From assembly GCF_000935355.1 (NCBI RefSeq), contig NZ_JXZC01000001.1, positions 744,001-808,000 of the forward strand: a DNA stretch of 64,000 nucleotides, written 5' to 3'. The translations under genes and the position numbers were made by a program. The DNA is from Rossellomorea aquimaris (lineage in GTDB: Bacteria > Bacillota > Bacilli > Bacillales > Bacillaceae_B). Below are positions 2,913-43,278 of this stretch, piece after piece. Under the pieces are notes generated by a model that saw only the letters and a program-made list of their open reading frames with translations, did no database searches and was not told the origin of the DNA. The first letter of the stretch is position 1, and each line of letters begins with the position of its first letter.

Positions 2913-2982
2913 TAGAGGCGCTTAAGTGTTGAAAAATGTATACATCTTTCTTTAGCAGCCTTACATTAACTGGGTGCTTGTA

Positions 2983-3010
2983 ACAATCGTCGATACCATT
3001 ACATAGACTA
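2983..3010 (+). promoter_or_regulatory. Candidate sigma-K promoter for the coiled-coil gene
   Basis: On the plus strand AC (2983-2984), a 17-nt spacer and CATAGACTA (3002-3010) match the sigma-K pattern AC-N16/17-CATAnnnTA at every defined base. The predicted start near 3017 falls just before the AGGAGG ribosome-binding site at 3029-3034. I see no convincing sigma-A promoter at that spacing. Confidence 0.5.
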
Positions 3011-3042
3011 ATGTATCAGAAACTGACCAGGAGGAGATTACC

Positions 3043-4170
3043 ATCGATGAGGAAAAAGTGGTTTATCCACTATATAACATTTCAAATCAAGAAAGCTTCT
3101 TTTTACTATCGGAGATTAATAACCTAAAACAGACTATAAAAAAGTTAAAAACCAGCTACCTTTACGCTGAGAATGAACATTTAAAAGAAGAAATCAGTCA
3201 AAAGAATCGTGAACTAGAGCTTGCCTACGAACAAATAAAAGTAAATGATCTGTACGAAACAGAACTGTTAAAGGATAGAAACTCATTAACAGAAGCGAAA
3301 GAAAAAATAGAATCCGAGTTAAAAAATGCAAACAAGATAATCATGCATAATGGGGCTCATATTCAAACACTTGAAAATGAAAAAAAAGAATTAGAGAAAT
3401 TTCTTTTAATAGAAAAACATAAAATCAAAGAAGTCAGAAAACAGCTGGAAGAAATTCAAACAGAAATATATTCATTGAAAGAGTCTGAAAATGTTTTACT
3501 ATGCGAAATAGATACTTTGAATGCAGATTTAGTTGAAAAAGATAGGATTATCTACTCACTTGAAAATGAAATAGCTATTAAGGATACACACCTAAAAGAA
3601 TTAAACCGAGCACTTTCACATTCGGAAGAAACAAAAAAAGATCTCTTTCAGGACTTATTGACAAAAGCAGAAAAATTAGAAGGACTGTCGGTTGAAAGGG
3701 ATCAATTAATTCTTAGATTTGAAGAATCCAAAGAAAAATTAATGGAATCTGAAAAAATGAAAGTGGATTATTTCGAAAGAATGATTGAAGCTGTTCAGCA
3801 GCAGATCGAGGAGAATGAATGGTGGCTGACAAATCAATTCGCTGACATTGATCGATCATCCAAGAAGCAGGAAGAAAAAATGGACTCACTTGAATTGATA
3901 ATGAATGATTCATTTGAAAAAGTGCTAAGTAAAAAAGATAATATGTTGAACGAACTTGAAAAATTCGATTCCCAACTTTCACATATCATCCAACAGATGA
4001 ACACACTTTACCAGACCGAGTCATCTATATTTCACGGAATTGATTCTCTTAAAACACTGATCGATTCTAATAAAAATCAAGATACGAACAAACTTATGAC
4101 AACCAAAAAAGGCGTCTATAAAATTGAAGCAAGGGAAAGCACGCCAATAATCAGGGATAAAACAAGATAA
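3043..4170 (+). CDS. Unrecognised coiled-coil protein, the only plus-strand gene in the window
   Basis: I do not recognise this protein. It has about 370-375 residues and is almost entirely charged heptad-like sequence rich in Glu, Lys, Leu and Asn (for example LKEEISQKNRELELAYEQIK). I see no signal peptide, membrane segment or catalytic motif. A short non-coiled head contains VVYPLYNISNQESFF and a basic tail ends IIRDKTR. The start is unclear. AGGAGG (3029-3034) is followed eight bases later by an in-frame ATC (3043). An ATG at 3047 is in another frame, and a GTG at 3058 is in frame but 23 bases from the SD. The sigma-K-like promoter and spore-gene neighbourhood suggest mother-cell expression, which is inference. 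Base composition is AT-rich compared with neighbours. Confidence 0.75.
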   Translation: MDEEKVVYPLYNISNQESFFLLSEINNLKQTIKKLKTSYLYAENEHLKEEISQKNRELELAYEQIKVNDLYETELLKDRNSLTEAKEKIESELKNANKIIMHNGAHIQTLENEKKELEKFLLIEKHKIKEVRKQLEEIQTEIYSLKESENVLLCEIDTLNADLVEKDRIIYSLENEIAIKDTHLKELNRALSHSEETKKDLFQDLLTKAEKLEGLSVERDQLILRFEESKEKLMESEKMKVDYFERMIEAVQQQIEENEWWLTNQFADIDRSSKKQEEKMDSLELIMNDSFEKVLSKKDNMLNELEKFDSQLSHIIQQMNTLYQTESSIFHGIDSLKTLIDSNKNQDTNKLMTTKKGVYKIEARESTPIIRDKTR

Positions 4171-4197
4171 ATCACTACAATGCACATACAACAAAGA

Positions 4198-4230
4198 TAG
4201 AAAGGACTTCCAATTTGGAAGTCCTTTCTA
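4198..4230. terminator. Bidirectional terminator between the coiled-coil gene and korB
   Basis: A perfect 14-bp stem pairs 4198-4211 (TAGAAAGGACTTCC) with 4217-4230 around a 5-nt loop, with A/T runs on both sides. It lies between convergent genes and can serve both. Confidence 0.85.
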
Positions 4231-4239
4231 CAATCAGTA

Positions 4240-5106
4240 TTACATAAATTCTTTCACTAATTCATCAAATTTACTTTCATCCAACCTTAAATCATGAGTG
4301 CTTAGAGGCTCTTCGGAGTAACCTGCTACAAGATCTTGGTACGATGGCTGTTCTTTATTCTGATAAATCAAACCAGTAACCAGTCCATCCTTTTCCATGA
4401 GCATATTCATCGCTTGTTCACGATTTGATGGATCATAGCCTTCAACATCTGAGAGCCTTGTCAGGTTTTCTTTAAACCAGTCGTACGTATTAATCTTGTT
4501 ATATGTTACACAAGGACTAAATACGTTGATCAATGAGAAGCCTTTATGATTAAGTCCAGCTTCAATTATCGCCGTAAGCTCTTTCAAGTCAGAAGAAAAG
4601 CTTTGGGCAACGAATGTTGCACCTGCTGTCAGTGCCATTTCCATCGGTGCGAGTGCAGGCTCGATACTTCCCTGAGGCGTAGACTTTGTCTTGAAACCAG
4701 ATGATGAGCGCGGGGAGGTTTGTCCTTTTGTCAGCCCATAAATCTGGTTATCCATAACGATGTATGTAACATCAACATTACGACGGATCGCATGGATCGT
4801 ATGGCCAAGCCCGATGGCAAACCCATCACCATCCCCACCTGAAGCGATAACGGTTAAATCCTTATTCGCCATTTTTAATCCCTGAGCGATAGGAAGGGAA
4901 CGTCCATGAATGCCATGAAAACCGTATGAGTTAATATAACCTGATATACGTCCGGAACAACCAATCCCGGAAACGACAGCTAATTGTTCAGGATCCAGCC
5001 CCACATTTGCCGATGCACGTTGAATCGCTGCTTGTACAGAGAAGTCACCACACCCAGGACACCAGTTTGGTTTAACATTATTTCTGAAATCTTTAAAGGT
5101 AGCCAT
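4240..5106 (-). CDS. korB: 2-oxoacid:ferredoxin oxidoreductase, beta subunit
   Basis: This 288-residue thiamine-diphosphate-binding subunit of a 2-oxoglutarate/2-oxoacid:ferredoxin oxidoreductase is paired with the alpha subunit directly upstream. The N-terminus has WCPGCG (cysteines near 16 and 19) and GIGCSGR (cysteine near 50), which are cluster ligands in two-subunit enzymes of this family. The ThDP/Mg motif is GGDGDGFAIG (near 90) with a downstream DNQIYGLTKGQ. The enzyme decarboxylates a 2-oxoacid to its acyl-CoA and reduces ferredoxin. The substrate cannot be read from sequence; 2-oxoglutarate is the usual assignment in Bacillus. It starts three bases after korA ends, so the two are translationally linked. 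Confidence 0.92.
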   Translation of the reverse strand: MATFKDFRNNVKPNWCPGCGDFSVQAAIQRASANVGLDPEQLAVVSGIGCSGRISGYINSYGFHGIHGRSLPIAQGLKMANKDLTVIASGGDGDGFAIGLGHTIHAIRRNVDVTYIVMDNQIYGLTKGQTSPRSSSGFKTKSTPQGSIEPALAPMEMALTAGATFVAQSFSSDLKELTAIIEAGLNHKGFSLINVFSPCVTYNKINTYDWFKENLTRLSDVEGYDPSNREQAMNMLMEKDGLVTGLIYQNKEQPSYQDLVAGYSEEPLSTHDLRLDESKFDELVKEFM

Positions 5107-40854: not shown

Positions 40855-42978
40855 TTATGCTTGGTTTTGTTCTTCCTTTTCACGCTGTTCTTTAAGAACG
40901 GCTTTTCTTGATAAGTTGACTCTACCCTGGTTATCGATATCCAGAACCTTAACAAGGATCTCATCACCGATGGCTACCACATCTTCAACTTTGCGAATAC
41001 GCTCTTCTGCAATTTCAGAAATGTGGACAAGTCCATCTTTACCACTGAAGATTTCTACAAATGCACCAAATTTTTCAATTCGTTTTACTTTACCAAGGTA
41101 CATTTGTCCAGCTTCAACTTCTCTTACGATATCTTCGATTGTTTTCTTGGCCACTTTGTTCATCTCTTCATCAGTAGATGAGATGAAGATCGTTCCGTCC
41201 TGCTCAATATCAATCTTAACGCCTGTTTCGTCGATGATTTTATTGATTTGTTTTCCACTTGGTCCAATGACATCACGGATCTTATCAGGATTAATATGCA
41301 TCGTCAGGATTTTCGGAGCGTATTGGGACAGGCTCGTTCTTGCTTCACCGATTGTTGCTAACATGCTATCAAGAATCTGCATTCTTCCCTTTTTAGCTTG
41401 TTGAAGTGCTTCCTCAAGAATCTCCCGGGATAGACCTTCGATTTTGATATCCATTTGAAGAGCGGTTACACCCTTAGAAGTCCCGGCTACTTTAAAGTCC
41501 ATATCACCAAGGTGATCTTCCATTCCTTGAATGTCTGTCAGGATGGAGTAGTTTTCACCTGACTTGATCAGACCCATTGCAATCCCGGCCACAGGCGCTT
41601 TAATAGGAACACCGGCATCCATCATTGCGAGGGTACTTGCACAAATGCTTGCTTGAGAAGTTGAACCATTTGATTCAAGTACTTCCGATACAAGACGGAT
41701 TGTATAAGGGAAGTCTTTTTCGTTCGGAATAATTGGATCCAGAGCTTTTTCTCCCAGTGCTCCATGTCCAATTTCACGACGGCCCGGTCCTCTGATCGGT
41801 CCTGTTTCCCCTACACTGAATTGAGGGAAATTATAATGGTGCATGAATCGTTTTGATTCTTCAATCCCTAAACCATCAAGAACCTGAACATCTCCCAGAG
41901 CCCCTAATGTACAAATGCTTAGTGCTTGAGTTTGTCCACGTGTGAAAAGTCCTGAACCATGTGTTCTAGGCAGTAATCCAACCTCTGAAGAAAGTGGACG
42001 AATTTCGTCAACTTTACGGCCATCAGGACGGACCTTATCTTCAGTAATCAAGCGGCGGACTTCATTTTTCACAAGCTTATCCAACACTTTCTTCACTTGC
42101 TTCAGGGTAGCTTCATCGGCTTCCTTTTCTTCTTCATAAACAGCCATTACTTTATTCTTTACTGCTTTGATTGCTTCTTCACGAGCATGTTTTTCTTGAA
42201 CTTGAATAGCCGGGATCAGTTCACTTTCACATAATGAACGAACCTCTGCTTCAATGTCTTGATCTAATTCCACAAGTTGGATTTCAGATTTTTCTTTACC
42301 GACTTTAGCGACGATTTCCTCTTGGAAAGCAACTAAACGCTTAATTTCTTCATGACCAAACATGATTGCCTCAAGCATTGTCTCTTCCGGTACTTCATCC
42401 GCACCCGCTTCAACCATGTTGATGGCATCTTTTGTACCGGCTACAGATAAATGAATCTCACTCTTTTCAAGTTGCTCTACTGAAGGGTTAATGATGAATT
42501 CTCCATCAATCAGACCAACTATGACACCGGCAATCGGACCCTCGAATGGGATATCAGAAACAGATAGTGCCAGTGAAGATCCAAACATAGCTGCCATTTC
42601 AGATGAACAGTTTTGGTCTACGCTCATCACTATACTGATTACTTGTACTTCGTTACGGAATCCATCAGCGAACAATGGACGTATAGGACGGTCGATCAAT
42701 CGACTTGCCAGGATCGCCTTTTCACTTGGACGTCCCTCACGTTTAATGAATCCTCCTGGAATTTTACCCACTGCGTATAATCTTTCTTCATAATTAACCG
42801 TCAGCGGGAAGAAATCCAGTGGTTTTGGCTCTTTTGAAGCTGTTGCACTACTTAATACCGCAGTATCTCCGTAGCGTACCATTACCGCTCCATTGGCTTG
42901 TTTGGCAAATTGGCCTACTTCGACCGTTAATTCTCTTCCTGCCCAATCAATGGAAAAGGTTTGTTTAGTTTGTTCCAT
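40855..42978 (-). CDS. pnp: Polynucleotide phosphorylase
   Basis: This 707-residue phosphorolytic 3'-5' exoribonuclease is the main mRNA 3' degrader in Bacillus and is also needed for competence. Two RNase PH domains (about 10-230 and 310-540) are joined by an all-alpha domain. A KH domain ([18 protein letters not shown] near 563) and an S1 domain ([18 protein letters not shown] near 623) follow. The C-terminus is charged (REKEEQNQA). The length equals the B. subtilis norm (705). A 300-base leader with a small hairpin separates it from rpsO. Confidence 0.98.
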
Positions 42979-43278
42979 AAAGTGTACCCCTCTCTTTATA
43001 CATCACTTAAAGGGTTTCGGATGTACCTTACCCGTATAAATCTCGTTATTATTAATCTATATCATGCACGATGGTGCCGTTATATTCGTAAAAGTGGATT
43101 ACATAAATGTCTATGTAAATGCAGGTGCGCTTTCTACACAAAGTCAGAGACGTTTAGTCCAATATTCTGTTCATATTATGTATTGTTGACAAAAACCATG
43201 AAATTGAATACTTTTTCAGGTGATAATGATGAAAAATTTGTGGTTCATCATACAATGATTTCCACTTATCAAAACTAA
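42979..43278. other. Gene-free pnp leader
   Basis: About 300 AT-rich bases between the rpsO terminator and pnp hold no convincing gene. A perfect 8-bp hairpin ATGATGAA/TTCATCAT lies at 43226-43251. A -35-like TTGTCA lies nearby on the minus strand, but no -10 sits at proper spacing. A long leader could carry control of pnp, but I see no recognised RNA family. Confidence 0.5.

Follow-up and report, generated by a model that had tools for sequence, protein, structure and literature searches.

A 64-kb stretch of the Rossellomorea aquimaris genome (the 64,000 nucleotides analyzed here, referred to as the window) carries a coiled-coil gene that reads against its neighbors. To what family does its product belong, when is it made, and where does its translation begin? 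Sequence comparison makes it likely that the gene encodes a low-dose coiled-coil rod of the spore coat, a diverged homologue of YknT (Cse15), that would be read by sigma-K with GerE and started at an AUH codon (AUA, AUC or AUU).

The gene and its setting in Rossellomorea

In a mechanical survey of non-overlapping open reading frames (ORFs) of at least 90 aa in the window, 53 were kept, and the plus strand held only two of these: the reading frame at 3058-4170 and a 105-aa ORF at 42961-43278. ORF totals are 1,431 nt on the plus strand versus 54,981 nt on the minus strand, so the initial annotation of a lone plus-strand gene was sound. The gene was also described as AT rich, and 500-nt segments from 3001 to 4250 indeed contain 29-34% GC, with most surrounding segments at ~36-47%. 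Its main features are as follows.

3058-4170, plus strand: reading frame as first noted, 370 codons from a GTG start
3043..4170, plus strand: coiled-coil protein gene, putative distant homologue of YknT/Cse15, 375 codons plus stop
3808..3852, plus strand: conserved motif EENEWWLTNQFADID, of invariant or near-invariant columns, with its FADID part in the predicted helix break
4198..4230, unstranded: terminator-like inverted repeat, a 33-nt self-match on the opposite strand at 97% identity

The inverted repeat sits between the plus-strand gene and the convergent kor operon. The product had been called nearly all coiled coil, and AlphaFold2 (21 sequences, single chain, mean pLDDT 79, pTM 0.27) agrees in predicting helices at residues 13-265 and 276-351. 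The low-confidence break between these predicted helices, at 266-275, coincides with the conserved FADID.

In a first survey, which was rerun with a profile for the genus, the gene was matched in 32 of 36 Rossellomorea genomes, including its own, and in none of 25 genomes from other genera. Genomes G006, G009 (84% complete), G014 and G033 gave no match, and in G006 korB follows ~0.6 kb after miaB. The frame is open in 31 of the 32 matching genomes. The remaining copy, L045 of G011, is broken into pieces and was dropped, leaving the 31 genomes used in the start, promoter and tree counts. Within that assembly, which has 7% contamination, miaB with two in-frame TAA codons and the fragmented gene copy lie at G011:C9:205678-207195 and G011:C1:225621-226988, reflecting either decay or assembly errors.

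A survey of the miaB-kor interval in relatives, as the initial annotation had proposed, put the gene upstream of miaB, reading away from it, in loci reaching both. The neighborhood comparison covered 35 loci, not one per genome, several of which repeat a place already represented. The convergent neighbor is either korB or an unassigned 403-aa protein; the latter, at L040:11287-12498 (minus strand), occupies this position in many loci and matches nothing in Pfam or NCBIfam at E 0.01. In G030, a CryBP1-domain gene (PF07029; L046:8325-8921, plus strand) lies between the gene and miaB.

Promoter pattern and spore-surface neighbors

Immediately upstream of the gene are three candidate regulatory elements.

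2968..2979, plus strand: GerE-box-like site AACTGGGTGCTT, core TGGGT at 2971-2975, one base off the full consensus
2983..2984, plus strand: sigma-K-type -35 element (AC)
3002..3010, plus strand: sigma-K-type -10 element (CATAGACTA)

Pattern scans used the consensus sequences of sigma-E, sigma-K and GerE. The AC-N17-CATAGACTA on which a sigma-K-type promoter had been proposed is present at 2983-3010, and its conservation supports that proposal. Within the 110 nt before the start of 31 genes (the window gene and 30 homologues), with expectations taken from dinucleotide shuffles, 28 genes carry CATANNNTA (1.4 expected) and 25 of 31 the full AC-N16/17-CATANNNTA (0.106 expected), counts that, like those for GerE and the start codon below, overstate independence because the genes are related. 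The pattern is nevertheless kept in otherwise differing sequence in the window pair, L021, L015/L017/L020, L025-L031, L032/L044 and L005-L014. The -10 CATANNNTA is missing in L016, L018 and L019, and an AC at the right distance is missing in L022-L024. The layout and spacing of sigma-K elements are given in the accessible part of PMC517825. In the window, the sigma-K pattern with a 16- or 17-nt spacer occurs four times over both strands, and one occurrence is upstream of cotE. There, at 635-508 on the minus strand, AC-N16/17-CATANNNTA lies just upstream of cotE with its AC at 635, an arrangement compatible with a late promoter for cotE.

Ten genes (L005-L014) have CATACAATA or CATACTATA as their -10 element, and either would suit sigma-E too. 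A scan for the strict sigma-E pattern ATA-N15-18-CATACNNT found it in none of the 31 upstream regions, which says little alone because the chance expectation is merely 0.05. In the stretch from -130 to -50 relative to the start, the GerE-like core TRGGY is present in 24 of 31 genes versus 7.5 expected from dinucleotide shuffles, and the full consensus RWWTRGGYNNYY in 12 of 31 versus 0.43 expected; most lie 67-84 nt ahead of the start. The gene shares with late coat genes under sigma-K and GerE the combination of AC-N16/17-CATANNNTA and an upstream TRGGY core; it differs from them in that the core is missing in 7 of the 31 genes, the window's own box being degenerate, and in that the promoter is known here by its pattern. 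From these patterns, it is most likely a late mother-cell gene transcribed from a sigma-K promoter, with help from GerE possible to probable.

On the miaB side of the gene in nine species lies an island comprising cotZ (PF10612), an Alp7A-like actin gene and CsxC-family genes. It was seen complete in L037, L040, L090-L093, L095, L096 and L107, with family searches made on L040. The actin gene is chromosomal (PF17989, PF22128; L040:4289-5470, minus strand), has a small gene beside it (3881-4285, minus strand) and lies between cotZ and the CsxC-family genes, an arrangement that recurs with the island in nine Rossellomorea loci. The initial annotation had suggested a structural role in the mother cell, and the adjoining cotZ and CsxC-family genes in nine relatives, together with homology to the gene at the rok-mobA locus (below), support this.

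The same island raises the possibility that the gene is one of a spore-surface set and that its product sits further out than the coat proper, in one of the outermost layers, the crust or exosporium. Glycosyltransferase-looking genes (judged from sequence) near the gene in L033 would be in line with such a location, as would late timing under sigma-K and GerE. However, the window has no such island in its miaB-kor gap, and the homologue YknT is listed among coat proteins: yknT appears in the spore-coat gene list in the available section of PMC3533761, and in Table 2 of PMC8005191, the part consulted, YknT is one of the coat proteins detected in spores, by 2 and 4 peptides. We found no literature linking YknT with the inner coat. 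A place in the outermost layers is therefore possible but somewhat doubtful, and we retain the coat as the preferred location.

The translation start

The initial annotation began the protein at GTG 3058. This start is probably misplaced, since the frame is open upstream and 30 homologues point to ATC 3043-3045, five codons earlier.

3029..3034, plus strand: Shine-Dalgarno sequence AGGAGG, with a 16S-tail duplex of -13.3 kcal/mol for a start at ATC 3043 versus -6.1 kcal/mol for GTG 3058
3043..3045, plus strand: proposed non-canonical start ATC (AUH), conserved 8 nt after GGAGG/GGGGG

Starts were assigned by scanning in frame until an AUH or canonical codon appeared 8 nt after GGAGG/GGGGG, a rule that placed 28 rows; those of L018, L032 and L044 were placed by hand. 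At this position 28 of the 31 genes carry an AUH codon (ATA in 19, ATC in six and ATT in three). Its first two bases are invariant (28/28) and the third is A, C or T, whereas both flanking codons vary, the one before it taking 15 forms. The exceptions near the aligned start are ATG in L018 and GTG in L032 and L044. In L020 an ATG lies one codon upstream, with an acceptable distance of 5 nt to GGAGG; L016 and L019 have one two codons upstream, 2 nt from GGAGG. Setting these three genes aside leaves a strict AUH count of 25 out of 31. Other upstream canonical codons are a GTG three codons up in L012 and ATGs further up in L024 and L027. Pairing with the 16S tail is stronger at the proposed start than at the next canonical codon in all 31 genes (medians -13.2 versus -4.0 kcal/mol). 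A point against the AUH reading is that two codons before the proposed start 22 of 28 genes have ATT, and three have AAG or AAA; this position is, however, 2 nt from GGAGG, and the conserved ATT would fit extended 16S-tail pairing.

Could the AUH codon instead lie in an untranslated leader, with translation starting at the next canonical codon (GTG 3058 in this species, ATG in many relatives)? This is the choice expected of gene callers, and in this species and its closest relative a GAGG lies 5 nt before the GTG. The GTG is common to L004 only. However, the strong, conserved Shine-Dalgarno sequence would be 15-90 nt further off than from the AUH codon. Six genes (L016, L019 and L021-L024) would have no canonical codon for the next 19-30 codons. 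The invariance of the first two AUH bases beside so variable a preceding codon also argues against a leader, as do the codons between AUH and ATG in L005-L014, which vary mostly at synonymous or conservative sites. We therefore regard a downstream start as quite unlikely, and judge that translation probably begins at ATC 3043. The out-of-frame ATG 3047 was also considered, as the origin of a programmed frameshift, and rejected, since among the compared sequences it is common to L004 only.

Among 45 minus-strand frames of the window, 15 have GGAGG before a canonical start, at a spacing of 5-9 nt (mode 7), and in none of the 45 does GGAGG-N8-AUH occur near the start. When three genes from the rok-mobA locus are used as outgroup, three changes are needed on the tree for the AUH/canonical class and seven for the codon itself, on a tree with long branches and a base without resolution. 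The aligned start in the rok-mobA-locus genes is ATG, except for TTG in L121.

Conserved starts of this kind are known elsewhere. According to the accessible text of PMC13009471, AUU/AUA reporters of Staphylococcus aureus cvfC1, ccpN and citZ give ~10% of the AUG level, with ccpN reaching up to 30% in rich medium, and conserved AUA/AUU starts in that species come with extended Shine-Dalgarno pairing. The GTC start of Streptomyces sigR is repressed by IF3, as stated in the portion of PMC5472188 consulted. The gene described here is like infC, ccpN, cvfC1 (AUA/AUU) and sigR (GTC) in having a strong Shine-Dalgarno sequence followed by a conserved non-AUG start, and it resembles infC, ccpN and sigR, in which rare starts limit translation. 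Those genes encode an initiation factor, regulators, a small protein or an enzyme, whereas a developmental structural protein would be involved here.

In the same genome, infC appears from its sequence to start with ATT after GGAGG. Genome-wide, CATANNNTA-N5-35-GGAGG-N8-ATH has three matches, as does its reversed-pattern control: the window gene, a DUF3243 gene, and one site without a long frame. The pattern AAAGGAGG-N8-ATH, which does not include the window gene (its sequence is CAGGAGG), has 12 sites versus 22 in the reversed control. Six of these sites lie 1-3 nt from a canonical codon whose frame is at least as long, and another three lack a long frame; that leaves the DUF3243 gene, L172 (110 codons) and L179 (301 codons). 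Because these scans are no richer than their reversed controls, AUH starts are no general habit of the genome. The DUF3243 gene (PF11588; L137/L139, G000:C23:100982-101326, minus strand, with homologues L140-L151) is likely, from its sequence, to be a second AUH-start gene in the genus. It reads AAGGAGG-AATTC-ATT-ATC at the start, a pattern found in 13 of its 14 closest matches (at least 89% identity, own included; L152, with an internal stop, is not shown), and its first in-frame canonical start is an ATG ~11 codons on, with no visible Shine-Dalgarno sequence. The CATA motif of the DUF3243 gene lacks conservation.

Homology to YknT and a proposed role in the coat

The gene had been thought to match no known family, and in Pfam and NCBIfam it gives sub-threshold coiled-coil matches and no assignment. 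It does, however, have a distant homologue at the rok-mobA locus, by position yknT/cse15. All ten genes of this kind, from genomes of a single other genus (f43/g43), lie between rok (PF23159 in L110) and mobA. We take rok-yknT-mobA to be the gene order of B. subtilis, and named the reference genes YknT by position. Profile against profile, hhalign gives a probability of 99.3% (E 6.5e-21, 304 columns), and the genus profile scores 72-85 bits (hmmsearch, full sequence) on all ten rok-mobA-locus genes. In the reverse direction, a ten-row rok-mobA profile finds 29 of the 31 genus proteins, missing L022 and L023 and reaching merely E 7.6 for L024. Two motifs recur in both groups of proteins, QE-x-LYLKSE toward the start and W...FADID toward the end.

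Across 397 genomes of the order, with the best five candidates per genome scored, the genus profile had outside matches in two genomes (f43/g43) and in seven weak, coiled-coil-like cases, missing 8 of the 10 g43 genomes. The seven (L081-L087, 22-40 bits to the family profile) were judged from their sequences to be coiled-coil background. A two-row YknT profile found its gene in 10 of these genomes, every one of them g43; at E <= 1e-5 it picked up none of the sample's 16 Rossellomorea genomes. The earlier label of lineage-specific thus stands for this locus and for the divergent form of the gene; it fails for the gene as a whole, given its homology to the rok-mobA-locus gene.

Alternatively, the similarity could be coiled-coil periodicity and nothing more, and the gene an orphan of unrelated origin. 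Both proteins are nearly all helix with a strong composition bias (44-59 bits), and SMC-type models match weakly too. Nevertheless, the match collapses in reversed controls, to 3.9% and 0.9% in hhalign and to at most 8 bits in hmmsearch, where three of the ten reversed rok-mobA-locus genes scored at all (3.5-8 bits). The best match that is not YknT-like among nine outside loci reaches 39.8 bits, and the two shared motifs occupy the same ends of the proteins. An origin unrelated to YknT is accordingly very unlikely. That the gene is decaying and has lost its ATG is scarcely credible: the ATG is missing, divergence is high, one copy is broken (G011) and four genomes (G006, G009, G014 and G033) have no match, but the frame stays open in 31 of 32 matching genomes, with promoter, Shine-Dalgarno sequence and AUH spacing conserved.

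The favored homologue, B. subtilis yknT, is BSU14250, and the excerpt of PMC517825 assigns it to sigma-E, with expression raised by SpoIIID. The two genes have in common a long coiled coil, both motifs, a full-length profile match and the character of a mother-cell sporulation gene. They differ in several respects. Identity is ~20%; YknT lies at rok-mobA, whereas the gene here lies at miaB-kor/sat, the rok-mobA neighborhood not being found for the Rossellomorea gene, which is on the miaB side in loci reaching miaB. Control of YknT is reported to be by sigma-E, versus sigma-K here by pattern only, and YknT starts with ATG, versus AUH here in most species. Given the different locus and a promoter class that is probably different too, we claim membership with YknT as distant homology only, leaving orthology aside, and the YknT identity itself is by locus position. 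The accessible parts of the literature found on cse15/yknT, the Rossellomorea spore coat, non-canonical starts and GerE/sigma-K do not mention the gene.

We propose that a sigma-K promoter, probably with help from GerE, reads the gene, which would place its expression late in the mother cell. A strong Shine-Dalgarno sequence would recruit ribosomes, and initiation would take place at the AUH codon, ATC 3043 in this species. The product would be a rod of ~375 residues whose two long predicted helices meet at the conserved WW...FADID hinge. Modeled as a single chain, the rod would likely form a coiled-coil oligomer, and within the spore coat this oligomer may be a minor component with a connecting or scaffolding role. 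AUH initiation would be inefficient, so that under this proposal the protein would stay scarce beside the bulk coat proteins, at a dose that may be sensitive to IF3; by analogy with other rare starts, the AUH codon may keep the rod below its partners. A stronger version, in which the AUH start acts as a gate on translation during development and allows bulk rod synthesis only when IF3 activity falls late in the mother cell, seems to us rather unlikely, but if true the timing or dosage of coat assembly would be set by initiation fidelity.

These comparisons tie a previously unassigned Rossellomorea gene to a known coat protein family and suggest that between genera the YknT family moved to another locus and perhaps came under another sigma factor. 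With it, a developmental structural gene would join the short list of those with conserved AUA, AUC or AUU starts, for which ordinary start-codon annotation does not look. The gene may therefore offer a testable case of coat stoichiometry controlled at translation initiation.
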